Shown here one piece after another: positions 39,913-60,221 of a DNA stretch of 64,000 nt (position 1 is its first letter; each line of letters begins with the position of its first letter). The notes below the pieces were generated by a model that saw only the letters and a list, made by a program, of their open reading frames with translations, did not search any database and had not been told where the DNA came from. The stretch comes from Fusobacterium varium (GTDB lineage: Bacteria > Fusobacteriota > Fusobacteriia > Fusobacteriales > Fusobacteriaceae), in NCBI GenBank assembly GCA_002356455.1, contig AP017968.1, forward strand, positions 3,534,001 to 3,598,000, given 5' to 3'. A program made the position numbers and the translations under genes.

Positions 39913-39932
39913 TATTTCCTCCTGATACAATT

Positions 39933-39972
39933 TAAAGAAAAGCAATATAAAATAATTTTATTCTATATTGCT
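39933..39972 (-). terminator. Hairpin terminator directly after btuB2
   Basis: AGCAATATA (39941-39949) pairs with TATATTGCT (39964-39972), followed on the minus strand by a T-rich run. It occupies the same place as the hairpin after btuB1. Confidence 0.6.
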
Positions 39973-39997
39973 TCTCTGTTTAATTATTCTTTAAATT

Positions 39998-41962
39998 TTA
40001 AAAACTATATTTGAATCCAACATAATAGTTTCTTCTTGTTCCATAATAATAATCCAATGTTTTTCCATCACTTCCTGCTTTTGCATTAAAATACTCTTTA
40101 TCTAATATATTATTTATTCCTCCATAAAGAGTCAAACCATTTTCCATCTTATAGCTCAATGATACATTAAGTTCAGTATGCCCCTTTTGTTTTCCTAAAT
40201 TATTATGAAAATCATAAGTAGCATAGGCACTTCCATAGTAGTAAAAGGCTGTATTAAATATTAAATTATTTAAAATACTATAGTCCATTCCTAGGTTATA
40301 CACATATTTTGAAACTCCTGGTATTTCATTTCCAGAAAAAGGCCCACTTTTTATTTCATGTTCTATATAACTGAATCCTTCTCTAAAAGTAATCTTATCA
40401 AAATATTGTTCCATAGATAATTCAATTCCTCTTCTTCTGTTTTTTCCAGGAAGATTATATGTTGTTCCTAATTTTCCATTTTCATAGGCTACATAAAATA
40501 TTTCATTATCTGTATCTGTTTGAAATATAGCTCCAGAAAAATATAGGTTATTCCATACAGTCTTTAATCCTAATTCAAATGTATCTGATGTCTGCATTTC
40601 TACATCATATCCTGGTCTCCAACGTCCTGCTTCATCAGCTGTAGGAGCTCTAAAAGCCCTATTGTATGTTAAATATATACTGCTGCTTTCATTTAATAAA
40701 TAACTTCCAGTTAACTCATAAGCATTTTCACTAAAAGTTTCATCTACCGTTTTAGGAAGTGTATGTCCTTTTGAAGGGTAGAGTCTATCTGTTACATCAT
40801 ATTTTATTTTCTGATGTCTATATCCTTGAGTAAAAATAAAATCATTAATTCTTGTCTTATTTGTAGCAAATACTCCTAAAGATTCTCTTTTAGTATCTGT
40901 ACTTGTAGAAGTTGTATATACATATTCAGATTTTCCTTTAGAAAAATCTCCTCCAACAATAAAATATGAATTGTCCATATATTGATATTTTACTTGTGGA
41001 GTAATATAAAAAGATTGAGTATCTCTTACTGTACTTGTTGCTCCAGTTTTTTCATTTATAGAATTATATAATTTATCTTTATAATCTCCTGCTATGCTGA
41101 ACTGCAGATTATCAGTAATTGCAGTTTCATACTTTCCTCTGTATATTTTTAATTTTTCTTTTCCTTTAGTAGAACCTGTTGAAGGTTTTATCTGTCCTTT
41201 ATCAATTTGAGTTTTAGTTAATTTTCCAGGAAATCTAGATTCAGTTTCTGAATGAGTAAATCCTAAAGTCAGCGTTCCATTATCAAATTTATATTTTGAA
41301 TTAAAGTCTGCATATTCCACATCTCTTGTATCATGCTTTCTATAATTTTCAACTTCTTTATTAAGATAATTTACATTTAATGATAACCTATCTGTAATTT
41401 GAGATCCTACATTGACTTTATATTTTTTTAAATCATAAGAACCTCTCTCATAGCCAACAGTTCCATAATATTTTTTATTTTTTCCCTCTTTTGTAATAAT
41501 ATTTATTACACCAGCTACTGCTCCTTCACCATATAGTACATTTCCTCCATTAGGAACTACCTCTATTCTTTCAATTGTATCTACTGGTATAAGGTTTAAA
41601 TTAACTCCAGCAGTATCCACAGTACTATTATATGGAATCCCATCTATTAAAAATAGAATATTCTGTTCTTCTTTTCCAGGGGCCATCCCTCTAAAAGATA
41701 TTTTAGCGTCTGATCCGCCTATATTATTATAAGCTGTTAAACCTGGCACTACCTTCAAAGCCTCTTCAATAGTTTGAGCACCCCTTCTCTCAATTTCTTC
41801 TGAAGTTATTACAGTTACGTTTTTAGGTGTTTCCAATACACTTGTTCCAAAACTTTCAGCAGAAACTATTGTTTCATCCAGTTTAACTGCAAACTTTTCA
41901 TCAGCTGCTGTTATTGATGAGCTAACTGCTAATACAGCAACTACCATTAAATATTTTTTCAT
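39998..41962 (-). CDS. btuB: TonB-dependent outer-membrane receptor (BtuB-like, copy 2)
   Basis: A 654-residue receptor with a signal peptide (KKYLMVVAVLAVSSSITAA), a TonB-box-like LDETIVS, the plug (RRGAQTIEEALKVVPGL, FLIDGIPYN, GNVLYGEGAVAGVINIITKEG in pieces) and a barrel ending FKYSF. It is related to but clearly different from copy 1 in the barrel loops, so it may take a different corrinoid or chelate. First gene after riboswitch 2. Confidence 0.9.
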   Translation of the reverse strand: MKKYLMVVAVLAVSSSITAADEKFAVKLDETIVSAESFGTSVLETPKNVTVITSEEIERRGAQTIEEALKVVPGLTAYNNIGGSDAKISFRGMAPGKEEQNILFLIDGIPYNSTVDTAGVNLNLIPVDTIERIEVVPNGGNVLYGEGAVAGVINIITKEGKNKKYYGTVGYERGSYDLKKYKVNVGSQITDRLSLNVNYLNKEVENYRKHDTRDVEYADFNSKYKFDNGTLTLGFTHSETESRFPGKLTKTQIDKGQIKPSTGSTKGKEKLKIYRGKYETAITDNLQFSIAGDYKDKLYNSINEKTGATSTVRDTQSFYITPQVKYQYMDNSYFIVGGDFSKGKSEYVYTTSTSTDTKRESLGVFATNKTRINDFIFTQGYRHQKIKYDVTDRLYPSKGHTLPKTVDETFSENAYELTGSYLLNESSSIYLTYNRAFRAPTADEAGRWRPGYDVEMQTSDTFELGLKTVWNNLYFSGAIFQTDTDNEIFYVAYENGKLGTTYNLPGKNRRRGIELSMEQYFDKITFREGFSYIEHEIKSGPFSGNEIPGVSKYVYNLGMDYSILNNLIFNTAFYYYGSAYATYDFHNNLGKQKGHTELNVSLSYKMENGLTLYGGINNILDKEYFNAKAGSDGKTLDYYYGTRRNYYVGFKYSF

Positions 41963-41990
41963 TATTTCCTCCCCTATTTATAAAAAATTA

Positions 41991-42034
41991 CAAATAAAAA
42001 CTCTGATTAGGCAAAATAATTTACCTAATCAGAG
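41991..42034 (-). terminator. Riboswitch 2 expression-platform terminator
   Basis: CTCTGATTAGG (42001-42011) pairs with CCTAATCAGAG (42024-42034), followed on the minus strand by TTTTT. It is the same hairpin as in the riboswitch 1 leader. Confidence 0.85.
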
Positions 42035-42098
42035 CACCAATTCTGAAATAATGAAATTCAAAAAATAACAGAAATTTACATTTTCAAATATATTAATT

Positions 42099-42245
42099 GG
42101 TAAGTCTTCTGACTTAGCTTCATCCTACTCTCACGCCTTCCCAGTTTCCCAGTGACATAATGTGATTTCGTCCGCCATACAGCAGCTTGCGCTGTGGGGG
42201 ATTCTCACCCCTCTTCCTCTATTAAGCTTATATGCACCTAATCAT
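42099..42245 (-). promoter_or_regulatory. Cobalamin riboswitch RS2 (btuB2-btuF2-cobN2 operon)
   Basis: Minus-strand aptamer with the same conserved blocks as RS1, including the B12 box AAGTCAGAAGACTTACC and GGTGAGAATCCCCC. The whole leader differs from that of RS1 at only about six positions over 300 bp, by direct comparison. It should repress the operon when cobalamin is present. Confidence 0.95.
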
Positions 42246-42268
42246 CTTTTTGTTTTATTCTAATTTTA

Positions 42269-42375: not shown

Positions 42376-43158
42376 TTATTTATTAAAATCTTCTGCAATA
42401 ATTACACTTTTTAAAATCTTATCCTCAATTTCAGTATCAAAAATTTTTGTTTCTATATTAAAATATTTTCTTAAATTGTCCTCATTTATTATATCAATAG
42501 TTTTTCCTATGATATAATCATCCTTTCCCATTATCAGTGATCTATCAGAGATTCTTAAAGCATATTCTGGATAATGAGTATTAAAAATACAAGTTATACC
42601 TTTTTCTTTTACCAATCTAACTATTAATTTTAAAATTATGGCCTGATTTTTAAAATCTAAATGAGATTCAGGTTCATCTAAGATTAATATTTGAGGTTCT
42701 CCAATCAAAGCTCTTGCTACAAATACCATCTGTAACTGTCCTCCGCTCAATTCAGAACACTTTTTATCTATTAGATGAAGTATTCCTATCTCATCTAATA
42801 CTTCTTCCACTAATTTCTGATCTTTTTTAGAGGGAATAGAAAACATTCCCAAATATCTAGCTCTTCCCATTATAGTTAATTCCCTTACTGAATATGGAAA
42901 AGAAAGACTATGTGCCTGTGGTACATATCCTATATTTTTCAATTCTTTAGGCGAATTTATTCTTCTATCTCCTATATACATCTCTCCAGAACTCCATTTT
43001 AATACACCATTAAGACATTTTAGCAAAGTAGTTTTTCCTATCCCATTTTGCCCCAATATTGTAAATATTTCTCCATCATTTACTTTTAAATTTATATTCT
43101 TTAAAATTAAATTCTCTCTTAAATATCCAAAGTTTCCATTTTTTATCTCTAAATTCAT
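42376..43158 (-). CDS. btuD: BtuD-like ABC transporter ATPase (operon 3)
   Basis: A 260-residue ATPase: Walker A GQNGIGKTT, signature LSGGQLQM, Walker B ILILDEPESHLD. It lies 4 bp after its permease gene and is the last gene of the riboswitch 3 operon. The signature and loop sequences differ from the ATPase of operon 1, so this is not a recent copy. Confidence 0.88.
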   Translation of the reverse strand: MNLEIKNGNFGYLRENLILKNINLKVNDGEIFTILGQNGIGKTTLLKCLNGVLKWSSGEMYIGDRRINSPKELKNIGYVPQAHSLSFPYSVRELTIMGRARYLGMFSIPSKKDQKLVEEVLDEIGILHLIDKKCSELSGGQLQMVFVARALIGEPQILILDEPESHLDFKNQAIILKLIVRLVKEKGITCIFNTHYPEYALRISDRSLIMGKDDYIIGKTIDIINEDNLRKYFNIETKIFDTEIEDKILKSVIIAEDFNK

Positions 43159-43162
43159 TTTC

Positions 43163-44164
43163 TCACCAACTCTTGTATCTCTTAAAAATAATAATAAAAA
43201 ATGGTGCTCCTACTAAAGAAGTGAGTATCCCTATTGGTATCTCTGCTGCTGTAGCTGTTCTGGCTATTCCATCTATTATCAGCATAAATATAGCTCCCAT
43301 TATGCAAGAACTTGGAATCAGTTTTGTATTATCAACTCCTATAAACATACGGCATATATGCGGTATTAACAATCCTATCCATCCTATTATTCCTGTAATA
43401 GTTACACATGCAGCTGTTATTAAAGTTACTAAAATTATTATAAAAGCTCTGATTTGAAGTGGATTAACACCTAATGACCGAACTTCATCGTCTCCTAGAG
43501 AAAGAATATTTATTCTCCATCTTAAAAGATATAAGATCATCATTCCTATCCCAACAGGAATTACTGCTATTTTCAATCCAGAATATGAAACATTAGAAAA
43601 ACTTCCCATAAGCCAGTAAGTTATAGCTGGAAGTTTATCATAAGGATCAGCAGTATACTTAATCAAAGAAATAAGAGAACCAAAAAGTGATGTCATAACC
43701 ATCCCTGAAAGTACAAGAGAGAGGGTGGAACTCTCTCCTCTCACTCTTGATAAAATATACGTCATTCCTACACTTAATATTCCAAAAAACATAGCTAAAA
43801 CTATAACATAACTGTTCATTCCAAAAAATAATATTCCAAGAACTGCTCCAAAAGCTGACCCAGAACTTACACTGATTACATCTGGGCTTACCAACGGATT
43901 TTGAAATATTCCTTGAAGTGCTGTTCCTGATACAGCAAGTCCTGCTCCTATTACCACATTCATTAATACTCTTGGTATTCTAAGTTGATATATTATTGAA
44001 CTTTCAATAGATGTATTTTCTATTCCTTTTAAGCTGTTTATTATAGTTGAATAGAATACTGCAGGAGAGATATAAAACCTTCCTAAAAATATTCCTCCAA
44101 ATATACAAAAAAACAATACTATTATAAGAAACAAAAGTTTCTTTCTATAATTATCCTTATACAT
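43163..44164 (-). CDS. btuC: BtuC-like ABC transporter permease (operon 3)
   Basis: A 333-residue FecCD-type permease: RIPRVLMNVVIGAGLAVSG, SVSSGSAFGAVLG, GDDEVRSLGVNP, GIIGWIGLLIPHICR, and PIGILTSLVGAPFFI. It lies 11 bp after the binding protein gene. Riboswitch 3 upstream supports a corrinoid or cobalt-chelate substrate. Confidence 0.9.
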   Translation of the reverse strand: MYKDNYRKKLLFLIIVLFFCIFGGIFLGRFYISPAVFYSTIINSLKGIENTSIESSIIYQLRIPRVLMNVVIGAGLAVSGTALQGIFQNPLVSPDVISVSSGSAFGAVLGILFFGMNSYVIVLAMFFGILSVGMTYILSRVRGESSTLSLVLSGMVMTSLFGSLISLIKYTADPYDKLPAITYWLMGSFSNVSYSGLKIAVIPVGIGMMILYLLRWRINILSLGDDEVRSLGVNPLQIRAFIIILVTLITAACVTITGIIGWIGLLIPHICRMFIGVDNTKLIPSSCIMGAIFMLIIDGIARTATAAEIPIGILTSLVGAPFFIIIFKRYKSW

Positions 44165-44175: not shown

Positions 44176-45234
44176 TTAAATATCAAGTCCTTGATTTATT
44201 TTTATATTTAAAATAGTTTCTAGTTGTTCTTCTGAAAGTTCATAATCAAAAAACTTAGAATAAAAATCTTTAATATCTTTTTTTATATTATATTCTTTAA
44301 AAATTTCAGGTGCAGCAGTTTTAGCTATCCATTTAATCATAAGTGGTGTCTCTGCACAAGGTGCATCCCATCTATAAATTCCTATTGGAGCTTTATATAC
44401 TTTTTTATTTTTTATAGCTTCAATATTTGCCCAATTTTGTCCACTGATTTTATTATTATAGATATCATCTGGTTGTATATTATCAAAATTACTCAAAATA
44501 ATTATATCTGGATTCCATACCATTACTTGTTCCATAGTCACTTTAGTCCAGTTTCCTGTTTTAATATCCTTAGTTACATTTTCTCCACCAGCCATATTTA
44601 TCATAATATCATTAACTGAATTTCCTGTTGCCACTGTTAATTGTGAATCTCTTATATAAAGAATCTTTTTTCTTTTTATATTTTTTAGCTCATTTTCTTT
44701 TGATGTCAGATAATTATTCGTATCCTTATGATATGCTATCAATTCAGCTGCTTTTTCCTCTTTATTAAAAATATCTCCCAACAACTTAATTCCCGCTTGA
44801 ACATCTTCCAATGTTCCATATTTTATAGCTACTGAAGGTATTTTTATTTTATCCAGTTTTTCTTTTACTTCTCCTTGATAATCCCATATTACTACTAATT
44901 CTGGTTTTAAAAGAGCCAATTCCTCATAATTCATATTAAAATTATTATCCACAAATGTTGAATTTATTTTTTCCATTTCTGGAGCCATTTCTTTTAAAAT
45001 GCTTATTTTATATGCTCCAATAGCTGATGGATGCATTCCTACAATCTTTGAAGCACTTCCATCTACTGCATAAGCAAGAGAGGCCCAAGGTATTGGTACT
45101 ATAGCCACCTTCTGAATGTTATCTGATATCTCTACATTCTTTCCTGTCAAGTCAGTTACTACTTTACCTTCTGTACTTATACTTCCCAACATAAACAATG
45201 AACACATAAACATACAACTTAAAATCTTTTTCAT
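44176..45234 (-). CDS. Cluster A binding protein of ABC importer (operon 3)
   Basis: A 352-residue binding protein with a signal peptide (KKILSCMFMCSLFMLGSIS). Core motifs are VVTDLTGKNVEI, LALLKPELVVIWDY, TGNSVNDIMINMAGG and VWNPDIIILSNFD. I chose ATG 45234 with AAAGGAGA upstream; an in-frame GTG three codons earlier sits too close to that site. It is larger and only distantly related to the other binding proteins here, closer in look to metal-chelate proteins. It follows riboswitch 3 directly. Confidence 0.85.
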   Translation of the reverse strand: MKKILSCMFMCSLFMLGSISTEGKVVTDLTGKNVEISDNIQKVAIVPIPWASLAYAVDGSASKIVGMHPSAIGAYKISILKEMAPEMEKINSTFVDNNFNMNYEELALLKPELVVIWDYQGEVKEKLDKIKIPSVAIKYGTLEDVQAGIKLLGDIFNKEEKAAELIAYHKDTNNYLTSKENELKNIKRKKILYIRDSQLTVATGNSVNDIMINMAGGENVTKDIKTGNWTKVTMEQVMVWNPDIIILSNFDNIQPDDIYNNKISGQNWANIEAIKNKKVYKAPIGIYRWDAPCAETPLMIKWIAKTAAPEIFKEYNIKKDIKDFYSKFFDYELSEEQLETILNIKINQGLDI

Positions 45235-45278
45235 CCTTCCCACTCTCCTTTAATTATTTTATAGAAATTTTTTTAAAT

Positions 45279-45324: not shown

Positions 45325-45369
45325 CAAATACTGAAAACCTATTTAAATAAATAGTATTTTAATGACCAT

Positions 45370-45515
45370 TGGTAAGTCTTCTGACTCAGTTTCATCCTAC
45401 TCTCACGCCTTCCCAGTCTCCCAGTGACACAATGTGATTTCGTCCACCATACAGCAGCTTTTCGCTGTGGGGGAATCTCACCCCTCTTCCTCTATTAAGC
45501 TTATTCACACCTAAT
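45370..45515 (-). promoter_or_regulatory. Cobalamin riboswitch RS3 (btuFCD operon 3)
   Basis: The minus strand holds AATTAGGTGTG, GGTGAGATTCCCCC, CACTGGGAGACTGGGAAGGC, GAGTAGGATGAAA and the B12 box GAGTCAGAAGACTTACC. Its terminator lies at 45279-45324. The core is almost identical to RS4 and differs from the RS1/RS2 pair. Confidence 0.94.
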
Positions 45516-45540
45516 TGTTTTTAGTTATTCTTTCATCCCA

Positions 45541-45688: not shown

Positions 45689-47572
45689 TTAAATATTGTA
45701 TTTAAACCCTAAATAAAAATCTCTTTCATCAGCAGGAATTCCAGTAGTTTTAGTTTCTTCTAAATAGTACTTTTCATTAAATAAATTATTGACTCCTCCA
45801 TATATACTTAATCCTCTACCTATGTCATATTTTACTGATAAATCAGTAACAATATTAGAATCTTTATTATAACTTCCTGTATTCATACTTCCTGTATAAT
45901 TTATACTTGTATTTAATGTTAATTTTTCTGTTGCTTCATATGTTGCAGAAAGTACAAACCTTTTTTCAGGAACATTTGGAATATCTTGTCCTTTCTTGCT
46001 TCCTTTAGTAATTTCTGCATCTATAAAAGTAAATGATTCATTTAGTGTTAATTTTCCTAAGTATTGTTCTGCTGTTAATTCTATTCCTTTTCTTTCTGTT
46101 TCATCAAGATTTTCATATACAAAATTGGGGCTTCCTAAAGATTGATAACTAATTTCATCTTTTATTGTAGAAAAAAATCCTGTTATACTTACATAACTTC
46201 CAAAGATATTATCTTTCATTCCAATTTCATAAGTTGTTGATTTTTCAGCTTTTAAATCATTTCCGACATAATCTCCTTTTATTCTGTTAGCTAATTGTCT
46301 TGGTGTTGGAGCCACAAAACCTCTTTCAAATTTTACATATATATTTCCTGTATTACTGTATAAATAATTTAATCCTATATCAGCAGCATAATTGTCTATT
46401 TTATTATCAATATCCAAATTTACTCCAGAATCTCTATATCCATCATATTCATTCCATTCTTTTCTTCCACCAACGCTTAAAATCAGGTTATCATTAAGCT
46501 TATATTTTTCTACAGCATAAATTGCATTAGTTATTTTATCAACATCCATAGCTGTACTAGAACTTTTCATTATTCCATTATTTTTATTGTAGTCATAACC
46601 TGCCACTAATATTCCATTAGAATGCTCATATCTTCCTTTAACTCCAATTCCTTCTATATCCATTGTACAAGTTGTTAATCTTGTACTTTGAGTATCATTA
46701 TCTATTTTTGATTTAAATCCAGTAACTCCTAAAGTAAATTTATCAAACTTTCCTTCATATACTGCTTGATAACTTTCTCTTCTTGAATACCATCTTGATA
46801 CTGCTCCTGCACTTTCTCTATCTTTTTCTAATTTTGTTTTTGCTACAGCATCTGTAAAGTTAAAATCTCCTCTATAATTTTCACCTTTTAAAATTAATCT
46901 TTGATTATTGCTAATATCATAAGTTAATGTTCCTGAATAGTTATTCTCTATCCCTTTGTCTTCATCTCTGTAACCTTCTCTTGATAATCCGTTATATCCT
47001 ACCATTATTCCTAATTTATCTGTTATTTTTGTACCTGTAAAGATATTTGTATATTTTTTATTATAAGATCCAATTCCAGAATCAAGGCTTAAAAATGGTT
47101 TATCTACATTTTTTTTAGTAATTATATTTATGTATCCACCAGAAGCCCTATCACCATAAAGGACTGCTCCACTTCCTGGAAGGATTTCTATCTTTTCTAT
47201 TGTTGCAACTGGTATTGTATTAAATCCTTGTGGAGACATTATTGTATTAATTGGCACCCCATCTATCATCACTTTAACTTTCATATCTATAGCGCTATGA
47301 TTTTGACCTCTCATATTTATAATAGTTCCTTGAGAAGTTCCACTTACATTAATCATCGAATAATCTTTTAAAATATCTGTTACCTGATTATAGTGTTTTT
47401 TCTCAATATCTTGTTGATTTATTACAATAACATTTTTTATTTCATCTTTAACCGTTTCAGAAAATCCTGTTGTAGTAATAACCTTTTCCTCTAATCTTAC
47501 CCCCATATTTGATTCAGCATAAAGTGATGACACAGCACAAATAAAACTTAAAATAACTAATCTTTTTTTCAT
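45689..47572 (-). CDS. TonB-dependent outer-membrane receptor (copy 3, nitrogenase-like operon)
   Basis: A 627-residue receptor with a signal peptide (KRLVILSFICAVSSLYAES), TonB-box-like EEKVITTTGF, plug (VTDILKDYSMINVSG, MIDGVPINTIMSP, GSGAVLYGDRASGGYINIITKK in pieces) and a barrel ending FKYNI rather than the usual terminal Phe. It is the last gene of the operon that begins with a NifH-like protein, 15 bp after the NifK-like gene. Its ligand should be the substrate, product or precursor of that reductase system. Confidence 0.88.
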   Translation of the reverse strand: MKKRLVILSFICAVSSLYAESNMGVRLEEKVITTTGFSETVKDEIKNVIVINQQDIEKKHYNQVTDILKDYSMINVSGTSQGTIINMRGQNHSAIDMKVKVMIDGVPINTIMSPQGFNTIPVATIEKIEILPGSGAVLYGDRASGGYINIITKKNVDKPFLSLDSGIGSYNKKYTNIFTGTKITDKLGIMVGYNGLSREGYRDEDKGIENNYSGTLTYDISNNQRLILKGENYRGDFNFTDAVAKTKLEKDRESAGAVSRWYSRRESYQAVYEGKFDKFTLGVTGFKSKIDNDTQSTRLTTCTMDIEGIGVKGRYEHSNGILVAGYDYNKNNGIMKSSSTAMDVDKITNAIYAVEKYKLNDNLILSVGGRKEWNEYDGYRDSGVNLDIDNKIDNYAADIGLNYLYSNTGNIYVKFERGFVAPTPRQLANRIKGDYVGNDLKAEKSTTYEIGMKDNIFGSYVSITGFFSTIKDEISYQSLGSPNFVYENLDETERKGIELTAEQYLGKLTLNESFTFIDAEITKGSKKGQDIPNVPEKRFVLSATYEATEKLTLNTSINYTGSMNTGSYNKDSNIVTDLSVKYDIGRGLSIYGGVNNLFNEKYYLEETKTTGIPADERDFYLGFKYNI

Positions 47573-47587: not shown

Positions 47588-48802
47588 TTATTTTAGTTGA
47601 TTTAAAATCATTTCCCCCATCTTTAAAACTCCTTCTATTCCCATAAAAGAATTTTCACAACTTAAAAATTTAGCTTGAATATTTGGATTACTTACCCTTA
47701 TTTTTAGTTCTCCATCCAAATAATTTAATAATTCTTCATCCCCTAATATTAAATCATAGCTTTCTGCCTCATTCCATTGTTCTCTATCAATTATCTTATC
47801 TAAATATTCTTTATAATACTGTGTATGTAATTCTGTTAGCTTATGATTTATTATAATTTTTTTTACTAATATGTTTAGATCATTTTCTAATAAACTACAT
47901 AAACCGCATGCTTCAAAATAGTTTCCACTTATACATACACTCAGTTTTTTATTTCTCAATTTTCTTTTTAATGCTATTTTAGCCTCTGTTATTCTTTTTA
48001 TTTCTTCAGTTATTAAATAAGAATCTCTAGATTTTTTTAAAATATTTCCTATTTTTTCCAATGTATTTTTTATATTATTAACTCCATAAAAATTAGCAAC
48101 AATATAAGTCGTTCCACAATATTTTTCCAAATATTTTGCTGCTTTTATTCCTTCTGGTCTTACTACTATATTAATTTCAGCTTCTGAAATATCTTTTAAT
48201 TTTTCTATTTCTGCTGATATATTCAGGCAAGAATTTAGCTTTAAAGAAAAATATTTTTCCACTATAAATTCAATAGTTTTTTTATCACTTTTGTAAAAGC
48301 AATCATTTTTAGAAAGTCCTATTATATTAAATTTTCCACTATTCTTTTTTATCTTTTTTTCACAAAAGTTTGAAACTAATAAAGAAAATCCATTTTCTAT
48401 TCCAATAGATATATCTCCATAACTTCCACTATCTTCTAAAGGAATAAGCTTTGCTTTTATTTTTTTCTGTAATATATTACAACAAGCTACAATATCTATT
48501 CCTACTAAAGCAGTAAGACTTGTAGCAGAAACAAAAATATATTCATACAGATTTTTTTTATCTAATTCTATTATCGCTTTTTCTAATCTCTCTGTTTCCC
48601 CAAAAAGAAGATCATTTTCTTTTATATGTGCACTGAAAAGATTAATTCTTTCAAAACCTGTTCCCATTAAAAAATCCATTGCAAAATGAGTTGTTCCAGA
48701 AGGTCCATACTCTATAATTGCTGTTTTATCTATTCCTGCTATTGTTAAAAGAGTTCCCATTCTGCTATTTGGAATAGGCAGCCTATTAAATTTATTCATC
48801 AT
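47588..48802 (-). CDS. NifK/BchB-like nitrogenase component 1 subunit lacking cluster cysteines
   Basis: A 404-residue protein of the nitrogenase component 1 fold, far shorter than true NifD/NifK (about 480-520). Landmarks align with its partner: PIPNSRMGTLLTIAGI, EYGPSGTTHF (residues 31-40), and VSATSLTALVGIDI (91-104). At the three places where cluster cysteines normally sit the residues are near Met15, Thr37 or Thr38, and Thr94; a Cys-Cys pair occurs later (107-108). So it probably contributes no cysteine ligand, like BchB. Its start overlaps the partner's stop (TAATG). Confidence 0.82.
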   Translation of the reverse strand: MMNKFNRLPIPNSRMGTLLTIAGIDKTAIIEYGPSGTTHFAMDFLMGTGFERINLFSAHIKENDLLFGETERLEKAIIELDKKNLYEYIFVSATSLTALVGIDIVACCNILQKKIKAKLIPLEDSGSYGDISIGIENGFSLLVSNFCEKKIKKNSGKFNIIGLSKNDCFYKSDKKTIEFIVEKYFSLKLNSCLNISAEIEKLKDISEAEINIVVRPEGIKAAKYLEKYCGTTYIVANFYGVNNIKNTLEKIGNILKKSRDSYLITEEIKRITEAKIALKRKLRNKKLSVCISGNYFEACGLCSLLENDLNILVKKIIINHKLTELHTQYYKEYLDKIIDREQWNEAESYDLILGDEELLNYLDGELKIRVSNPNIQAKFLSCENSFMGIEGVLKMGEMILNQLK

Positions 48803-50022
48803 TACTCACATTCCTTCAATATTGCTGACAAGATTTCTTCTTGAGCCTCCAGGCCAAACTGTCCATCAGTAAGATAATTTATATTTAAATGTTTTATTTC
48901 ATATTTCTTTAAAATTTGAGGATATTCCATTCCTATAAAATAATCTACATCCATTTCTTTATATAATTCCCTGATAGGTTCTAGATTTCCACTTTTTATA
49001 TATTTAACTAAATAATTCTTAGATAGATACTCTGCATCTTCTTCTTCAAAACTATAGATATCTTTAATAACCATAATTTTAGGAATAATTCCAACCTGTT
49101 CTAATAATATCCCTATTTCTACTGCTGAAACTGATATAGGAGCTACTACTGCTAATTTATTATTCATATTTTTTTCTTTGATTTTATTTTTTAAATTTAA
49201 AATTTTATTTAAGGCCTCTTTTATATTATCTTTAATATCTATTTCTAGAATATTTTCAATTTTTAAGTATTCTTTTTCTAATTCTTCTACTTTTCCTATT
49301 CTAAGTAAATTTATATAGGGAATTGAAAACTTCCTTTCCATATATTTTGCTAGTTCTAAGCCAGTAAAATCTACTACAATATTAATTTTTACATTTGATA
49401 AATTTTTTATATCATCCAATGAGTTTATTGAATATGGGACGATACTATTAATACTTATTCCTTTTTCTTTTAAAATTAAAGATATTTTTGATTTTTCTCC
49501 ATTTCTATATCTCATTCCTAAGATATTAAAACTTTTCAAATTATTTTCAAAATTAGGACTTTCTATCAATTCTCCTAAAATGTTTATAGTTTTGGCCATT
49601 CCTTTGATATAGTTATCACATTTAAAATGTTCAGTTCTCATAAGTAGAATTTTAGTTTTATATTTATTTTCAATACTTTTAATAATTCCTTCAATATCTT
49701 CTCCTGTAAGTTCAACTATACAAGTAGTAATAATTAAAATTACCTCTGGTAAATAAATATTTATAATCTCATCAATAGTTTTAACTAATATCTCTTCAAT
49801 CCCTAATACTATTTCTTTATCAGTTAATGAAAGCATTAATAAAGAATCATCTCTTTGTTTCTTTCCATATTCAAAAATAAAATTTTTACTATAATATGTA
49901 CATTCTTCAGTTCCTATAACTAATATTTTTAAACTTTCTATTCCTGCTGCAACCATAACTGCTCCAAAAAGATCACAATGAGAACCTGGATTTATTGCAT
50001 ATGATAATTCTTCTATCTTCAT
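48802..50022 (-). CDS. NifD/BchN-like nitrogenase component 1 subunit with three cysteines
   Basis: A 406-residue component 1 subunit: NPGSHCDLFGAVMVAAGI (Cys16), VIGTEECTYY (Cys41) and IITTCIVELTGEDI (Cys101). These three cysteines stand where nitrogenase P-cluster and DPOR cluster ligands stand. The pairing with a cysteine-free partner is the pattern known for BchN/BchB, which reduces protochlorophyllide. It lies 8 bp after the binding protein gene. True nitrogen fixation is unlikely: no nifB, nifE or nifN is present and the length is too short. Confidence 0.85.
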   Translation of the reverse strand: MKIEELSYAINPGSHCDLFGAVMVAAGIESLKILVIGTEECTYYSKNFIFEYGKKQRDDSLLMLSLTDKEIVLGIEEILVKTIDEIINIYLPEVILIITTCIVELTGEDIEGIIKSIENKYKTKILLMRTEHFKCDNYIKGMAKTINILGELIESPNFENNLKSFNILGMRYRNGEKSKISLILKEKGISINSIVPYSINSLDDIKNLSNVKINIVVDFTGLELAKYMERKFSIPYINLLRIGKVEELEKEYLKIENILEIDIKDNIKEALNKILNLKNKIKEKNMNNKLAVVAPISVSAVEIGILLEQVGIIPKIMVIKDIYSFEEEDAEYLSKNYLVKYIKSGNLEPIRELYKEMDVDYFIGMEYPQILKKYEIKHLNINYLTDGQFGLEAQEEILSAILKECE

Positions 50023-50030
50023 TTAATCTT

Positions 50031-50912
50031 CTACTCCTCATAAACTATTTTATAGAGTTCTTCTAAAGCCTCTATTCCATTCACTCCAGAACTCATTCTA
50101 AATAAAGTTGAACTTATATTTAATATTTTATTATTTTTATAGGCGTTTGTTACTTTTAAAAGTTCATTGTCTTTCAATAAGTCATTTTTTAATTCATCTG
50201 GAGCTATTTTTAATATATAGTCTGGATTTAAATATACTAATTTTTCTACACTGAAAGGGATTATTTTTGCTCTACTATTAACTTTCCCTTCAACCTCATT
50301 AGATACATTTATACAATTAATTTTAGAAATAAGTTCACTTGCAAAATGATCATTTGAAATAATACTAACTGTGCTATCCAAGTTATATAAAATAGCTATC
50401 CTTTTTGGTTTTTGTTTTTGTGCTTTATCAATTATAATTTTTTCTCTTTTTTCTATATCTTTTAAAAGATTATTACTAATATTTTCTTTTTGAAAAGCTA
50501 ATCCAAGCTTCTTTAAACTTTCCTTTGAAGTTTGGTAACTTTCTAAATCTATATAAAATACAGGTATTCCTAATTGCTTATATCTTTCAGATGTTGAAAA
50601 TTCAGCAAATGTAGTAGATATAACTAAATCTAAATTTAAATCTTTCATTACTTCATAGTCTGGTGATCCAGCTCTTCCAACTTTTACAACTTTGTTATAT
50701 CTATCTGGAATTTTTGTCATAGATGTAGGAGCCCCTATTAAATCTATTTCTAGAACATCCAATACTCTTGCAACAATAGCAGAATCTGTAGCTATTCTTT
50801 TTGGAAAACTATTTAGCACTAACTTATTTTTTCCTTGTTCCAATACAAATTCTTCACCAAATAAAAAACTAGTTATTATAATCCCTAAAAAAAATCCTAT
50901 TATTTTCCTCAT
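50031..50912 (-). CDS. Cluster A binding protein of the nitrogenase-like operon
   Basis: A 293-residue periplasmic binding protein with a signal peptide ([18 protein letters not shown]), then [39 protein letters not shown] and [17 protein letters not shown]. It overlaps the NifH-like gene by 4 bp, so it is translated with the reductase. No permease or ATPase is in this operon; it may use the transporter of operon 1 or 3. Confidence 0.85.
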
Positions 50913-51664
50913 AGTTTTTCTCCTTGATAAATTTTTTCAGAAAGTTTTAAATAATATCCACTTATCTTGGAATTTTTATTTAATTCTATTACTGTTTTTC
51001 CTATATTTTCAGCAATTTGTATTTCTGAACTTCTAGGTATATCCATTATTATTTCTATTCCAATTTCTTTTGCAGCTTTTTTTACAATTTCTTCTTCATT
51101 TTCAATATTTTTTCTATTCAGTATTAATCCTTTTAATTTAGCATACCCTCTATTTGAAAGATTTTTCATTGCTTCTGCAATATTTGAAGCAGCATATAAT
51201 GACATCATTTCTCCAGATGTAACTATATAAACTTCATCAGCATACCCCTCTCTTAATGGCATTGTAAAACCTCCACAAACTACATCTCCCAAAACGTCAA
51301 ATAATACTATTTCTGGTTTAAAATTTTCTAAAATATTTAGTTCTTTTATCTTATCAAAGGCTGCAATTATCCCTCTCCCTGCACAACCTACTCCAGGTTT
51401 TGGTCCTCCTGCTTCAATACATTTTATATTATTAAACCCTGTAAATAATATATCTTCTATTAAAATATCATTTCCTTTTTCTCTGATTGTATCTAATACT
51501 GTCTTTATCTTTTTTTCTCCTAAAATATTTTTAGTTGAATCAGATTTAGGATCACATCCTATCTGTAATACTCTATATCCTCTTACTGAAAAAGCCGCAG
51601 CAAGATTTGAAACTGTAGTAGTTTTTCCAATCCCACCTTTTCCATAAATTGCTATTTTTTTCAT
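50909..51664 (-). CDS. NifH/BchL-like iron protein (ATP-dependent reductase)
   Basis: A 251-residue iron protein: P-loop [10 protein letters not shown] at 7-16, GCDPKSDS at 36-43, and the two cysteines that bridge the [4Fe-4S] cluster of the homodimer, Cys94 in [14 protein letters not shown] and Cys130 in [10 protein letters not shown]. It should hydrolyse ATP and pass electrons to the NifD/NifK-like pair encoded two genes downstream. It is slightly shorter than NifH. Expression from riboswitch 4 would have to cross an insertion element. Confidence 0.92.
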
Positions 51665-51691
51665 TTTTCCTCCATTTTTCTTAAATAAAAA

Positions 51692-51735
51692 AAGCTGAGT
51701 AACATTTAAAAAAAATGTTTTACTCAGCTCTCTTT
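51692..51735. terminator. Bidirectional terminator in front of the NifH-like gene
   Basis: GCTGAGTAACATTT (51694-51707) pairs with AAATGTTTTACTCAGC (51713-51728) with one small bulge; T runs lie outside on both strands. It blocks readthrough into the NifH-like gene from upstream and may mark an edge of the insertion element or belong to the original leader. Confidence 0.7.
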
Positions 51736-51780
51736 TTTGTATAATATAGTTACCACCCTAATTATGCAAAGGAGACATTC

Positions 51781-52989
51781 ATGCAAATCAAACATATTAT
51801 CTCTAAAATCAATATAACAAATCTTTTAGGTAAAATCAAAAAATATTTTAAAAATGAGCATTTTGAGGATGTTAAACAGACTATTCAAAAATTCTTAGCC
51901 TGTTCTATTGATAAATCTTTTCTCTCTCTTCAATGCCCTAATTGTCATGAGGCGCATAAAATTAAAGTTACTTGTAAATCTAGATTTTGTCCTTCCTGCG
52001 GTAAACGTTATTCTGCTGTTTGAACTGAAAAAACTTCCACTTCTCTTATTGATGTTAAACATAGAAGTGTCCTTTTTACTATTCCTGAAGAACTTAGAAT
52101 GTTTTTCTTCTATGATAGAGACCTTTTAACTAAGCTTGCTTATGCTGTTAATGATGTTTTTAAATATCAATTTCATAACATTAAAGCAAAAAATCAAAGA
52201 ATTCATAAAATTTCAAAATATTCCTCTAAATACTTTACTAACTCAGATATCATTCATTATGGATTGATTACTGTTATTCATACCTTTGGACGCGATCTTA
52301 AATGGAATCCTCATATTCATGCTATTGTTACTTTAGGTGGATTCAATAAAAACTACCAATTTCTTGAAAAAAAATATTTTCATGTCAATTCCATTGCTGG
52401 ACAATGGAAAAAAATGGTTATTGATATTGTTAAATCTGGAAATTATGACAAGCCTGAAATTAAAGCTAAAGCTTATGCTGCTGCTAACTCCCTTTATCGC
52501 AAAAATACAAGATTCTTTTTCAATGTTGCAAAAAATGATTTAAATAATAATATTTATGCAATTAAATATATTGGCAGATACCTGTCAAGAGCTCCTATCG
52601 CAGAATATAAAATTATTGATTTCTATGATAATAAGGTTACTTTCTATTATGAAAGTCTTGCTGATGATAAACAAAGAATTGAGCTTACTTTAGATGCAGA
52701 AACATTTCTTTCTAAATTAATTATTCACATTCCCCCTAAACATTTCAAAATGATTAGGCGCTTTGGAATCTATTCTAGAAATATTAAATCAGAACTTAAA
52801 AATATCATGAAATTCATGAGAAAATATGTCTCTAAATATTCCAATTCTACTTTTTATCAACTTGAAATATGGAAAGCTTTTGGAGTAAATCCTTTTTATT
52901 GTTTTAAATGTAATGCCAGAATGAAAGTTAAAAAAATATCATATTTTAATATACATACAGGCTCCATTTGCTGGAAAGAATATCGCTAA
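51781..52989 (+). pseudogene. IS91-like (Y2 HUH) transposase with one in-frame TGA
   Basis: The 403-codon frame is interrupted only by TGA at 52021-52023 (codon 81), where related proteins have Trp after CPSCGKRYSAV. The N-terminus is a zinc-binding region (CPNCHEAHKIKVTCKSRFCPSC in pieces), the HUH motif is seen in WNPHIHAIVTLGG, and the tyrosine region in YIGRYLSRAPIAEYKI. A second Cys pair (CFKCNARM) is near the end. One nonsense change and otherwise full length indicate recent inactivation. Confidence 0.85.
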
Positions 52990-52990
52990 A

Positions 52991-53015
52991 CAGCTGATTA
53001 ACAATCAGCTTTTTT
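52991..53015 (+). terminator. Terminator after the IS91-like transposase
   Basis: AGCTGA (52992-52997) pairs with TCAGCT (53005-53010) followed by TTTTTT on the plus strand, directly after the transposase stop. Confidence 0.65.
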
Positions 53016-53123
53016 GTGCTGTCAATTTTAATCTTATTCAATTAATATATCTAATATGAATACAAAATAATTAATATTTTTTATTTTTTCAACAAATTTA
53101 TCAAATTATAATTTCCTAAGAAA

Positions 53124-53168
53124 TAAAAAAACTCTCCAGTTAATAGAAGATTCTATCTTACTGGAGAG
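53124..53168 (-). terminator. Riboswitch 4 expression-platform terminator
   Basis: CTCTCCAGT (53132-53140) pairs with ACTGGAGAG (53160-53168), followed on the minus strand by a T run. It matches the RS3 platform. Confidence 0.85.
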
Positions 53169-53218
53169 CCAAATACTGAAAAACTATTTTAAAAATAGTA
53201 TATCTTTATATGACCATT

Positions 53219-53364
53219 GGTAAGTCTTCTGACTCAGTTTCATCCTACTCTCACGCCTTCCCAGTCTCCCAGTGACACAATGTGATTTCGTCCACCATAC
53301 AGCAGCTTTTCGCTGTGGGGGAATCTCACCCCTCTTCCTCTATTAAGCTTATATGCACCTAATT
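53219..53364 (-). promoter_or_regulatory. Cobalamin riboswitch RS4 (nitrogenase-like operon, now separated)
   Basis: Minus-strand aptamer with AATTAGGTGC, GGTGAGATTCCCCC, CACTGGGAGACTGGGAAGGC, GAGTAGGATGAAA and the B12 box GAGTCAGAAGACTTACC, nearly identical to RS3. The first minus-strand gene downstream is the NifH-like gene, 1.5 kb away across the IS91-like element. Confidence 0.94.
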
Positions 53365-53390
53365 ATTTTTTTATTATATTTTTTACCAAT

Positions 53391-54716: not shown

Positions 54717-55697
54717 TTATCTTTTTCCAATTTCTTCCTTATTCAAATGACAAGCTATTTTATGTCCACTGTTAATTTCTTTTAATGCTGGTTTTTCCAA
54801 TCTGCATATTTCTATTGCTGATTTACACCGATTCACAAAAGGACAGCCCTTTGGAATATTTAGTGGACTTGGAACTTCTCCTTCCAATAATTCTAAATTA
54901 TTTTTAGAGTTCATATCTAAAGTAAATACTGCATTTACTAAAGCTTTTGTATATGGATGAAGTGCTTCTTTTTTCACTCTCTGCCCTGGCAGAATTTCCA
55001 TTATATTTCCTAAATACATAACAACAACTTCATGAGAAAAAGATTGAACCAAAGCCAAATCATGACATACAAAAACTATACTTAAACCTTTTTCTTTTTG
55101 TAATTTTTTTAGTAATTCTATAATACTATTCTGTATGGAAACATCTAAGGCCGATGTTGCCTCATCACATATCAATATCTTTGGATTCAATGAAAGAGCT
55201 CTTGCTATTCCCACTCTTTGAAGTTGCCCTCCACTTACATTATGAGGATATGAATACAGATATTCTTTAGAGAGTTCCACCATTTCCAATAATTCCTCTG
55301 CTTTTTCTTTTTTATCTTTATTTGATAATAATCCATAATTCATCAAAGGTTCAGTAATTATATCTATAATTTTCATTTTAGGATTAAATGCTGCCATTGA
55401 ATCTTGAAAAATCATCTGCATATTTTTTCTATGTTCCCATATTTCTTTTTTCGAAAAATGAGCTATATCCCTATTTTCATAAATTATACTGCCTGAACTT
55501 ACTTCTTCAAGCTGCATCAGCATTCTTACAAAAGTAGATTTTCCACAACCACTTTCTCCTACTATTCCTAAAGTTCTTCCTTTATAAACATTTAAATTTA
55601 TATCATTACATGCTATTAAAGATTGATTCTTTGCTGTAGTAAATATTTTAGAAATCCCTTTTGTTTTCAGTATCAAATCTGATTCTTTATAGAGCAT
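54717..55697 (-). CDS. Opp/Dpp/Nik-type ABC ATPase (second ATPase, RS5 operon)
   Basis: A 326-residue ATPase with Walker A GESGCGKST, signature VSGGQLQR, Walker B ILICDEATSALD and the C-terminal cysteine cluster (CPFVNRCKSAIEIC, later AC) common in OppF/DppF proteins, where it may bind an iron-sulfur cluster. It overlaps the first ATPase by 11 bp and is last in the RS5 operon. Confidence 0.88.
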   Translation of the reverse strand: MLYKESDLILKTKGISKIFTTAKNQSLIACNDINLNVYKGRTLGIVGESGCGKSTFVRMLMQLEEVSSGSIIYENRDIAHFSKKEIWEHRKNMQMIFQDSMAAFNPKMKIIDIITEPLMNYGLLSNKDKKEKAEELLEMVELSKEYLYSYPHNVSGGQLQRVGIARALSLNPKILICDEATSALDVSIQNSIIELLKKLQKEKGLSIVFVCHDLALVQSFSHEVVVMYLGNIMEILPGQRVKKEALHPYTKALVNAVFTLDMNSKNNLELLEGEVPSPLNIPKGCPFVNRCKSAIEICRLEKPALKEINSGHKIACHLNKEEIGKR

Positions 55698-56472
55698 GCC
55701 TTTCCTCCAATCCTGGAACAGAATCTAATAATAATTTTGTATAATCACTGTTTGGAAAATTCAGTATCTGTTCAGGCTTTCCTTTTTCTACAATATCTCC
55801 ATCTTTCATTACTATTATTTTATCTGACATATATGAAGCTACTCCTAAATTATGAGTTACAATTATTATACTTGTTTCATATGTATCTCTTAAGCCTATT
55901 AATTCCTGTACAATCTGTGCCTGTGTTGTAACATCTAAAGCACTAGTAGGTTCATCTGCTAATAATATTTTAGGATTGAATGTCATTGCCATAGCAATTC
56001 CTATTCTTTGACACATTCCTCCACTTAATTGATGAGGATAGCTCTCCATTATATTTTCTGGATCTGGGAGCTTCATTTTTTTCAGCATTAATTCAGCTTT
56101 TTTTCTTGCTTCCTCTTTTGAGCAATTCGAATGATATTGAATATACTCAATGTATTGGCTGCCTATTTTTCTAATTGGATTTAATGTATTACGGCAATCC
56201 TGAAAAATCATAGTTATATTTTTTCCTCTGTTTTTCTTTAATATTTCTCCTTTATCACTAAGTAATTCTTCATTATCTAAAATGATACTTCCAGATAATA
56301 TTTTACTATTATATGATAAAGCTCCCATTATACTTTTTATTACTGTAGTTTTTCCACTTCCACTTTCACCTACTATACCTACAATTTCACCTTTTTTTAC
56401 TGACAAGTTAAAATTTTTTACTGTTGGCTTTTTCTTCCCATATTGTATAGTCAAATCTTTTATCTTTAACAT
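55687..56472 (-). CDS. Opp/Dpp/Nik-type ABC ATPase (first ATPase, RS5 operon)
   Basis: A 261-residue ATPase: Walker A GESGSGKTT, signature LSGGMCQR, Walker B ILLADEPTSALD. It is short for DppD and close to NikD in length. It lies 8 bp after the binding protein gene. Under a cobalamin riboswitch, cobalt, a cobalt chelate or a corrinoid precursor is the likely cargo. Confidence 0.86.
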   Translation of the reverse strand: MLKIKDLTIQYGKKKPTVKNFNLSVKKGEIVGIVGESGSGKTTVIKSIMGALSYNSKILSGSIILDNEELLSDKGEILKKNRGKNITMIFQDCRNTLNPIRKIGSQYIEYIQYHSNCSKEEARKKAELMLKKMKLPDPENIMESYPHQLSGGMCQRIGIAMAMTFNPKILLADEPTSALDVTTQAQIVQELIGLRDTYETSIIIVTHNLGVASYMSDKIIVMKDGDIVEKGKPEQILNFPNSDYTKLLLDSVPGLEERHAL

Positions 56473-56480
56473 AGTTTCTC

Positions 56481-58037
56481 CTACTTCAAAGCTGTTTTAT
56501 TTGTTATCCAATAGTAATCTGTTGGGTATAGAACAGTATTTATCACATTTTTTGCAGTAATCAAATATGTTGTTTCATATCCAAAGAAAATTGTAGGAAT
56601 GTCATCCATTATTAATTGTTGAATTTCAATAGTAAGTTTTTTTCTTTCTTCAGAATCAAATTCTGCTGATAATTTATCTAGCAATTCATCTACTTTAGCA
56701 TTACTATATCCTGTCTGATTAGATGGAGATTTACTATACCAGTTTTCACGAAGGTATTTTTCAGGGTCTCCAGTATTTGCTACCAGCACATTCCAAATAA
56801 GCATGTCAAATTTTCCTGCATCTCTTAAATCTAATAAAGTTTCATAACTTACTGTATTTATTTTAACATTAATTCCAATCTCTTTAAGATTTATTTGAGC
56901 TGCTTGAGCATATATTTTTAATTCTTCTCTGCTTGTATAGATAACAAAATCAAGCTGAATTTTTTTCCCATCTGGAGTTTCTACAAAACCATCTCCATCA
57001 ATGTCTTTATATCCTGCATTTTTTAATAATTGTTTTGCACTTTCTGGATTATATTTATTCTCATCTATTAACTCATCAAAACCAAAATCTAATGTTGGTG
57101 GAATTGGGGCTTTTCCTGGAGTTGCTCCTCCTTCTAATAAAACTTTACAATATATATCTCTATTTAAAGCTCTTGATACCGCCTGACGTAAAATTTTATC
57201 TCCAAGGACACCTTTTTCATTCATAAAAGCAAAAGTTGTTCTTAAAGACTCTAAACTTTGAATATGATACTTGCTTTCATCGCTAAAATCCTGTAAATTT
57301 TCTGTTTTAAGATTATATGCAATTTGAATTTCTCCAGATTGCAAAGCCATAGAACGTGTAGCTTGGTCATTTATACACTTAAAAGTTACTTTATCTAATG
57401 GAACTTCTCCATTCCAGTAATGTTTATTTTTAACAACAACACATACTTCAGTTGGATTAAAAGATTCTACTACATATGGTCCTGTACAGACTGGTCCTTT
57501 CATTGCAAAAGTTGAAGTGTCTGCATCTGTATTAACTATTATAAACAAAGGATCTGCCAAACATTCAGGAAGAACAGTCACTGGAGCTTCTGTACTTATT
57601 ATTACATATTGCCCATCTACTTTTATTGAAACAGGGTTAAAAAATGTTGAGGCTCTATTGCTTAATTTAAATGTACGCTCAAGAGATTTTTTTACTCTTT
57701 CAGGTGTCATTTCTGTTCCATCAGAAAACTTAACTCCCTCTCTTATTTTAAATTTCCATACTTTCCCACCTTCACTGTTTTCCCAACTTTCTGCTAATAA
57801 AGGTGCTTTTTCCCCATGTTCATCAAATTTTACTAAAGTTTCTCCAACTCCATATCTTGAAACTACCCAGCTGAAATACTGTTCTGTGGTTTCAAGAGTA
57901 TCTGCAAAGCTTGTTACTCCTACTGTTATTTCTTTAGGAGCTGCCATTACAGATGTTGAAATACCAGTAAATATTCCTAAAACCATCATCCCCATTAAAA
58001 CAATTCTGCTGACAAATTTTTTACTTTTCATTTTCAT
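56481..58037 (-). CDS. Opp/Nik-type periplasmic binding protein (RS5 operon)
   Basis: A 518-residue SBP family 5 protein with a cleavable signal peptide (IVLMGMMVLGIFTGISTSVMAAP) and no lipobox cysteine, so soluble in the periplasm. Family segments: AESWENSEGGKVWKFKIREG, FSDGTEMTPERVKKSLER, TGPYVVESF, KHYWNGEVPLDKV. NikA-type proteins of this family bind metal chelates and others bind peptides or haem; the ligand here is unknown. It lies 23 bp after its permease gene. Confidence 0.88.
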   Translation of the reverse strand: MKMKSKKFVSRIVLMGMMVLGIFTGISTSVMAAPKEITVGVTSFADTLETTEQYFSWVVSRYGVGETLVKFDEHGEKAPLLAESWENSEGGKVWKFKIREGVKFSDGTEMTPERVKKSLERTFKLSNRASTFFNPVSIKVDGQYVIISTEAPVTVLPECLADPLFIIVNTDADTSTFAMKGPVCTGPYVVESFNPTEVCVVVKNKHYWNGEVPLDKVTFKCINDQATRSMALQSGEIQIAYNLKTENLQDFSDESKYHIQSLESLRTTFAFMNEKGVLGDKILRQAVSRALNRDIYCKVLLEGGATPGKAPIPPTLDFGFDELIDENKYNPESAKQLLKNAGYKDIDGDGFVETPDGKKIQLDFVIYTSREELKIYAQAAQINLKEIGINVKINTVSYETLLDLRDAGKFDMLIWNVLVANTGDPEKYLRENWYSKSPSNQTGYSNAKVDELLDKLSAEFDSEERKKLTIEIQQLIMDDIPTIFFGYETTYLITAKNVINTVLYPTDYYWITNKTALK

Positions 58038-58060
58038 TCCCTTTTCTCCTCCTTATATTT

Positions 58061-58885: not shown

Positions 58886-58886
58886 T

Positions 58887-59825: not shown

Positions 59826-59881
59826 CAGATTTTACTCTCCTTAATTTTATTTTTTATACTTATCCCATCCAGATTTAAAAT

Positions 59882-59960
59882 AAAAAAATCAATCCCTTAC
59901 AACTAAAATTTTAAAAAGAGATTCCCCTTAATTTAAAATTTTAGTCTTAAAGAATTGATT
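59882..59960 (-). terminator. Riboswitch 5 expression-platform terminator
   Basis: A long imperfect stem pairs the AATCAAT region at 59887-59893 with ATTGATT at 59954-59960, plus an inner TAAAATTTTA pairing; a run of seven T follows on the minus strand. It lies between the aptamer and the first permease gene. Confidence 0.65.
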
Positions 59961-60203: not shown

Positions 60204-60221
60204 TATATATATCTACTAAGA

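Follow-up and report, generated by a model that had tools for sequence, protein, structure and literature searches.

A nitrogenase-like H, D and K gene set linked to probable metal-complex uptake genes in a cobalamin-riboswitch regulon of Fusobacterium varium

Functions are known for few relatives of nitrogenase, namely the fixation of N2, the synthesis of chlorophyll and of F430, and the reduction of organosulfur compounds. Here we describe a nitrogenase-like gene set from Fusobacterium varium, located on a stretch of 64,000 nucleotides of the 4.12-Mb genome (contig AP017968.1, positions 3,534,001 to 3,598,000; hereafter the window), in which the genes for a NifH-like iron protein and two component-1 subunits (referred to as H, D and K) are combined with those for a substrate-binding protein and a TonB-dependent receptor. 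A first-pass annotation had read this region as a tight operon coding for an iron protein with both cluster cysteines, two short component-1 subunits, a binding protein and a TonB receptor, and all of these are indeed present and intact on the minus strand.

Genes and riboswitches at the locus

The operon, its leader and the transporter unit that follows it comprise the following features.

53202-53378, minus strand: cobalamin riboswitch, apparently the original leader of the nifH operon (RF00174, 64.8 bits; riboswitch model R1, E 3.6e-33)
53132-53169, minus strand: intrinsic terminator hairpin of this riboswitch, recognized from the sequence; a T tract follows, within which an insertion sequence sits
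51686-53130, plus strand: insertion sequence with an open reading frame for a Y2_Tnp transposase (PF04986; ends fixed by comparing copies)
50909-51664, minus strand: NifH-like iron protein, 251 amino acids (PF00142, Fer4_NifH, 302.7 bits; tree and motifs)
50031-50912, minus strand: IsdE-family substrate-binding protein (TIGR03659, 147 bits, below its cut-off; PDB matches Lmo2184 and IsdE)
48802-50022, minus strand: component-1 D subunit, 406 amino acids (PF00148; alignments, AlphaFold2 model and fold)
47588-48802, minus strand: component-1 K subunit, 404 amino acids (PF00148; alignments and AlphaFold2 model)
45689-47572, minus strand: TonB-dependent receptor, last gene of the nifH operon (PF00593 and PF07715)
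45354-45530, minus strand: second cobalamin riboswitch (RF00174, 65.8 bits)
44176-45243, minus strand: substrate-binding protein of the second unit (PF01497)
43163-44164, minus strand: FecCD/BtuC-family permease (PF01032)
42376-43158, minus strand: ATPase of an ATP-binding cassette (ABC) transporter (PF00005)

The five operon genes are closely packed: nifH and the binding-protein gene (50912-50031) overlap by 4 bases, the start of the K gene overlaps the stop of the D gene (shared position 48802), and 15 bases separate the K gene from that of the TonB receptor. All five frames are intact and provided with good ribosome-binding sites. The iron protein possesses an intact P-loop (GKGGIGK) and both cluster cysteines (Cys94 and Cys130), and the two component-1 subunits reach 168 and 179 bits with the Oxidored_nitro Pfam model, scores that lie far above the cut-offs, as does that for Fer4_NifH. 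The TonB receptor (47572-45689) stands between the siderophore and BtuB families, with 180 bits to TIGR01783 and 159 bits to TIGR01779, both below cut-off. Downstream of it, the system extends into a second riboswitch-led unit (45530-42376) for a further binding protein, a FecCD permease and an ATPase. The genome holds only one other complete H, D and K set of this kind (C1:3169308-3172610; locus L008, 7261-10638), which is devoid of transporter genes and has Phascolarctobacterium-type sets as its nearest relatives; its orthologue in genome G026 (L029) is the sole further match that D of the window finds among 98 genomes of the phylum.

Rfam cobalamin riboswitches occur five times in the window and 14 times in the whole genome, in which a second cluster, with seven of them, is present at C1:2388-2403 kb. 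The first-pass annotation had noted this setting, and the link proved to be stronger than stated there: a riboswitch-terminator leader originally stood before nifH itself, and such a leader recurs in congeners whose nitrogenase-like enzyme is a different one. The riboswitch at 53378-53202 is parted from nifH by the insertion sequence, an element of 1,445 bases that is present in the genome in about 48 copies. Because these copies are 98-100% identical, the insertion is probably recent; the transposase frame of the copy in the window is split (51781-52023 and 52099-52989), and copies in the genome often adjoin terminators. When the element is removed computationally, riboswitch and terminator come to lie 93 bases ahead of nifH, the corresponding distance being 111-121 bases in three further units of the window that are led by riboswitches, and nifH then has a riboswitch with its expression platform directly upstream and on the same strand, an arrangement likewise found in congener G029. 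The riboswitches of the two units are identical at 163 of 177 bases, the terminator hairpin at 53132-53169 has an almost identical counterpart ahead of the gene for the binding protein at 45243, and the nifH leader including its hairpin is nearly the same as the leader of that gene. With the ends of the element located and the two leaders matching, the idea that the riboswitch at 53202 serves other genes was rejected. By all appearances, the nifH operon originally stood under the control of a cobalamin riboswitch and has since been split by a multicopy insertion sequence. As a rough estimate, 14 riboswitches among some 4,000 genes leave a given gene a chance of about 0.35% of standing directly behind one. 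The insertion lies within the T tract of the terminator, and the end of the element that faces nifH bears a terminator-like hairpin, directly ahead of the gene; the present expression of nifHDK is therefore uncertain.

Type of enzyme and its relatives

The assignment of H, D and K to the short nitrogenase-like reductases, made from the sequence in the first-pass annotation, is borne out by the Pfam scores, the cysteine pattern and the trees. D possesses three cluster cysteines (Cys16, Cys41 and Cys101), of which the second and third are kept in all relatives of type A/C, defined below, and the first in nearly all of them. K has no cysteine at any cluster position, and D, like BchN, lacks the FeMo-cofactor cysteine that the alignment shows in NifD, NifE and MarD. 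In the dark-operative protochlorophyllide oxidoreductase (DPOR), three cysteines of the N subunit and an aspartate of the B subunit hold a [4Fe-4S] cluster; in the window set, three cysteines are present in D. Because D keeps these residues, K has none and the cofactor cysteine is missing, the enzyme is most likely of the DPOR kind, a reductase that lacks the cofactor and holds one [4Fe-4S] cluster in each DK half. AlphaFold2 models (predicted local distance difference test scores of 89 for D and 88 for K) show the component-1 fold for both subunits, and the model of K is closest to DPOR BchB (template modelling score 0.84); the structure searches yield the component-1 fold alone and do not discriminate between substrates.

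Trees were calculated with NifHDK, MarHDK and BchLNB as references, as the first-pass annotation had suggested, and the window set is separate from all three; these trees contain neither CfbCD, NfaHDK and IsrHDK nor an archaeal reference. In the maximum-likelihood tree of the iron proteins, the group stands apart from NifH/AnfH/MarH and from BchL. The D and the K members of the component-1 tree each form one clade (95 in the Shimodaira-Hasegawa-like approximate likelihood-ratio test), positioned outside NifDKEN, Mar and Bch. Every known NCBIfam subfamily scores far below its cut-off with the window proteins, the NifE and NifEN profiles being among the best sub-threshold matches. Nitrogen fixation was rejected as a function: no NifB was found when the genome was searched for it, the cysteine ligand of the FeMo-cofactor is missing, there is no separate NifEN, and the trees keep the set apart from the nitrogenases (NifHDK, VnfHDK and AnfHDK).

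DPOR (BchL-BchN-BchB) shares with the window set an ATP-driven H protein, a heterotetrameric DK component, short subunits and the lack of the FeMo-cofactor cysteine, but the two fall into separate clades, the BchN, BchB and BchL profile scores of the window proteins are far below the cut-offs, and no photosynthesis genes are found nearby. For H, the top profile is that of CfbC (NF033200), with 331 of the 402 bits required and hence below cut-off, whereas D and K reach only 27-28 bits of the 268 required for CfbD (TIGR03282). Furthermore, CfbD is a homodimer that functions without a K subunit (PMC11423573), while a K gene is present in the window. MarHDK resembles the window set as a nitrogenase-like three-subunit enzyme of Group IV. 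However, Mar retains the cofactor cysteine, forms its own clade and employs nitrogenase metalloclusters (PMC12552129), whereas the window proteins are devoid of this cysteine and do not cluster with MarD or MarK.

The closest described counterparts are the transporter-linked Group IV clades reported by Dos Santos et al. in 2012, with Clostridium botulinum CLM_0808/0809 and Alkaliphilus Clos_0313/0314 as members (PMC3464626). As in these, a nifH gene and two component-1 genes stand next to importer genes (in the window, in the following riboswitch unit), three P-cluster-type cysteines reside in the E/D subunit and none in N/K, and FeMo-cofactor ligands are missing. The window differs by its TonB receptor, the IsdE-like binding protein within the operon and the cobalamin riboswitch, and that paper proposes no substrate. 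The first-pass statement that no described enzyme matches this combination therefore holds in part: the clade with its cysteine pattern had been described (PMC3464626), while the regulon context, the fused variant discussed below and the evidence on the cargo were not found in the literature searched. Our literature search on nitrogenase-like proteins in connection with corrinoids, siderophores, haem or cobalamin riboswitches found no description of such a system.

Searching GTDB genomes with the C-terminal region of the iron protein yielded 80 loci of relatives; a first scan of genome contigs with D, which is too divergent, gave no matches. Since the loci were retrieved via the iron protein and ranked by similarity, the neighbour counts are no census, and the similarities of the binding proteins are biased to nif-linked cases. 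All 80 loci stem from anaerobes; apart from a few, these are Clostridia, Negativicutes and Treponema. Clustering of the neighbouring genes revealed several fixed gene orders. Of the 80 loci, 64 have a binding protein, 61 a FecCD permease and 61 an ABC ATPase, and FecCD-type importers accompany H, D and K in about 60; AraC-type regulators (22 loci) and flavodoxins (eight) also recur. Component 1 comes in two kinds, type A/C with three cysteines in D and none in K, to which the window set belongs, and type B with two in D and one in K. Both patterns and the ABC transporters were already noticed by Dos Santos et al., who gave no function (PMC3464626); the protein group is thus known, yet unexplained. 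Searches of plasmids returned mostly rhizobial nif genes, plus a set from Sporomusa. Several genomes with transporter-linked sets (L128, L129, L130 and L131) also carry Mar-like D/K pairs, one of which scores 310 bits to MarD of Rhodospirillum rubrum.

The binding protein encoded at 45243-44176 was used to search the 98 genomes of the phylum for orthologues. Congener G029 (L152) has, without any insertion sequence, a cobalamin riboswitch, a terminator and then genes for a NifH-like protein (51% identical), a component-1 protein of 560 residues, a binding protein, a permease and an ATPase, the last three being 77-83% identical to the transporter of the second unit of the window. One riboswitch-transporter slot therefore holds two quite different nitrogenase-like enzymes within a single genus. 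In congener G028 the same operon is decaying, with the frames of H and the binding protein broken. The component-1 proteins of 551-560 residues (L152, 8969-10651; L154, 7406-9061; L155, 9353-11011; part of a riboswitch-led operon in two of the congeners) are D'-K fusions: a stretch of about 165 residues at their start aligns to the N-terminal domain of D of type B, and the remainder, from about residue 170, gives a full-length match of 200-220 bits to the K profile of type B. The fusions retain the full set of three cluster cysteines, with two in the D portion and one in the K portion. Together with H, such a fusion may constitute a minimal two-gene nitrogenase-like enzyme.

Cargo and proposed role

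The signals on the cargo diverge between the branches of the family and point to iron, to haem, or, in the window and its congeners, to B12. Because the system belongs to the corrinoid/cobalt regulon of this genome, a corrinoid or cobalt complex is the most likely cargo of the window locus, and we hold this to be right with about an even chance; a cobalt chelate also comes into consideration because the second binding protein is closer to HI_1472 and nickel-annotated proteins than to BtuF. We infer a scheme that comprises cluster type, electron flow, reduction step and cargo. The TonB receptor, the two binding proteins, the FecCD permease and the ATPase would carry a metal complex into the cytoplasm, where the NifH-like dimer would hydrolyse ATP and hand over low-potential electrons singly. 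These would pass to a [4Fe-4S] cluster in a D2K2 tetramer that has no FeMo-cofactor, with D providing the three cysteines that chiefly hold the cluster. DK might then reduce the imported complex at its metal, for instance taking Co(III)/Co(II) towards Co(I) and weakening the hold of axial ligands or a chelator, or might act on the ring, and the product could feed the nearby CbiZ/CobN salvage genes. Across the family, the common denominator would be FecCD-type import joined to the ATP-costing delivery of low-potential electrons for the reductive processing of an imported complex in the cytoplasm. That the window encodes an uptake-coupled, nitrogenase-like, ATP-driven reductase of an imported metal complex, placed here in a corrinoid/cobalt regulon, is an explanation that we consider evenly poised between being right and being wrong. 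A more specific version is more tentative and in our view rather doubtful: the enzyme would be the B12-regulated branch of a large, uptake-coupled nitrogenase-like family and would use ATP to drive the reduction of corrinoids or cobalt complexes taken up by the cell, while other branches of that family, in gut anaerobes, would liberate iron from haem or siderophores.

Several observations speak against the corrinoid/cobalt explanation. Most relatives point to iron, their contexts being those of iron, haem or siderophores. The second binding protein (44176-45243) is nearest to 4ovk, a solved but uncharacterized structure, then to HI_1472 and nickel-annotated proteins, with BtuF following only after these. 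The first-pass proposal that a corrinoid or other metallo-tetrapyrrole is reduced is thus supported in part: the link to the B12 regulon has proved real, while the corrinoid or tetrapyrrole substrate is putative in view of these relatives and of this binding protein. Nor do cobalamin riboswitches characterize the family as a whole: among the 80 loci, only that of Phascolarctobacterium faecium (L053) has a riboswitch in its vicinity, a frequency that chance alone would explain, and the notion of a corrinoid-specific family was dropped after the riboswitch model had been run over all loci. Among these 80 loci, none of the corrinoid-salvage genes CobN, CbiZ, ChlI and ChlD was found. Within the Fusobacteriaceae, genomes G017 and G016 have no riboswitch at the locus, and G017 does have the operon. 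H, D and K of the window sit on long branches, which makes their exact placement unsure, and the insertion sequence may now silence nifHDK through the hairpin before nifH. On the side of B12, a riboswitch-led receptor, an AP_endonuc_2 protein and a BtuF-like protein, all similar to B12-regulon proteins of the window, are encoded directly upstream of the H, D and K set in P. faecium, although a single case of this kind among the 80 loci does not exceed chance.

Haem or porphyrin and a metallophore are the main rivals to this cargo, both with a low probability. In the first case, haem or a related porphyrin is imported and its ring reduced by DK, so that iron or tetrapyrrole can be reused, with B12 control being secondary or serving the supply of tetrapyrrole to B12 synthesis. 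The binding protein of the operon is indeed IsdE/Lmo2184-like, and in the nearest H/D/K branch (L040, L076, L099 from Clostridioides difficile CD160, L103 and L107) the linked IsdE-like protein keeps both haem ligands, Met and His, so that these sets are candidates for ATP-dependent haem-processing systems in their own right. Phascolarctobacterium sets adjoin haemin-type TonB receptors, one of them also the gene for the haem-binding protein ChaN, and the known cofactor-free relatives work on tetrapyrroles. However, the window protein (50031-50912) has a Gly and a gap at the two columns of the axial haem ligands of IsdE, Met78 and His229; the operon had a cobalamin riboswitch, and a scan of it for Fur boxes found none. 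Moreover, haem iron is easily reduced, and ATP-driven electrons would consequently be necessary for the ring alone. Rather unlikely, too, is the release of Fe(III) or Co(III) by reduction of an imported siderophore-like chelate. A case in point is the Sporomusa termitida plasmid pSPTER (L030, 2807-15256), a candidate for a nitrogenase-like siderophore reductase, where an AraC regulator, a TonB siderophore receptor above the NCBIfam cut-off, two FecCD permeases, H, D and K, an esterase and Fur-like boxes occur together. Fur-like boxes with 16-18 of 19 positions precede four HDK operons (L072, L030, L102 and L107), the clear cases among 75 operons scanned, and reach this level in 0 to 0.25% of Markov shuffles. 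The kinship of the second binding protein to HI_1472 and nickel-annotated proteins fits such a role, as do the very low potentials that the reduction of ferric triscatecholates requires. In the window operon itself, though, the TonB receptor is the only siderophore-type gene and is about as close to the siderophore as to the B12 families, control by a riboswitch speaks against iron, and the cobalt-chelate version overlaps with the corrinoid/cobalt explanation.

We consider it improbable that the operon is a relic, recruited into the B12 regulon and silent since the insertion. The position of the element at the riboswitch terminator, the strong terminator-like hairpin right before nifH and the decay of the homologous operon in G028 would agree with this, but the five frames are intact with good ribosome-binding sites, and the insertion is recent, as judged from the identity of the copies; the element could also supply a promoter. 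A NifEN-like cofactor maturase, or a sulfur-compound reductase of the MarHDK/IsrHDK kind, is most improbable of all. The sub-threshold NifE and NifEN matches hint at the former, and a coupling of metal transport to cofactor assembly was once suggested for the group (PMC3464626); the missing cofactor cysteine, the absence of NifB from the genome, the lack of sulfur genes and trees separate from NifEN and Mar count against both.

The importer-linked set is common in gut Clostridia, Treponema and Phascolarctobacterium, and no substrate has been assigned to it since 2012. The locus studied here offers three testable handles, namely a ligand-specific riboswitch that provides a corrinoid/cobalt context, binding proteins that have kept or lost their haem ligands, and congeners with a different pair in the same slot. 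If our explanation is true, the salvage of B12 or metals by anaerobes would include a new step, a reduction at low potential that is driven by ATP, and many 'nifH' genes of the gut would be genes for nutrient scavenging rather than for nitrogen fixation.

Neighbouring B12 units of the window

Two further riboswitch units lie downstream of the second one.

35269-42256, minus strand: B12 unit with riboswitch (42256-42082), TonB receptor, binding protein and CobN
17312-32108, minus strand: B12 unit with riboswitch (32108-31934), TonB receptor, binding protein, permease, ATPase, CbiZ, CobN, radical SAM protein, ChlI-like, ChlD-like and AP_endonuc_2 proteins

Both CobN proteins of the window score above the curated cut-off, and CbiZ and the ChlI- and ChlD-like proteins are encoded in the same neighbouring riboswitch units; the CobN, ChlI-like, ChlD-like and CbiZ genes occupy 18306-25997 and 35269-39009. 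CobN homologues also accompany TonB and ABC uptake systems in gut anaerobes in the form of the de-chelatases HmuS and BtuS. HmuS, a CobN relative without kinship to nitrogenase, strips haem of its iron in a reaction that depends on NADH and not on ATP (PMC12583661); CobN-like proteins in such regulons therefore need not be cobalt chelatases. The xylose-isomerase-like AP_endonuc_2 protein is found in cobalamin-riboswitch units both of the window (17312-18301) and of P. faecium (L053, 7447-8409; 174.6 bits). A peptide/nickel-type ABC transporter (SBP_bac_5, two permeases and two ATPases) at 54717-60216 of the window stands behind a cobalamin riboswitch and is a candidate importer of cobalt or corrinoids.

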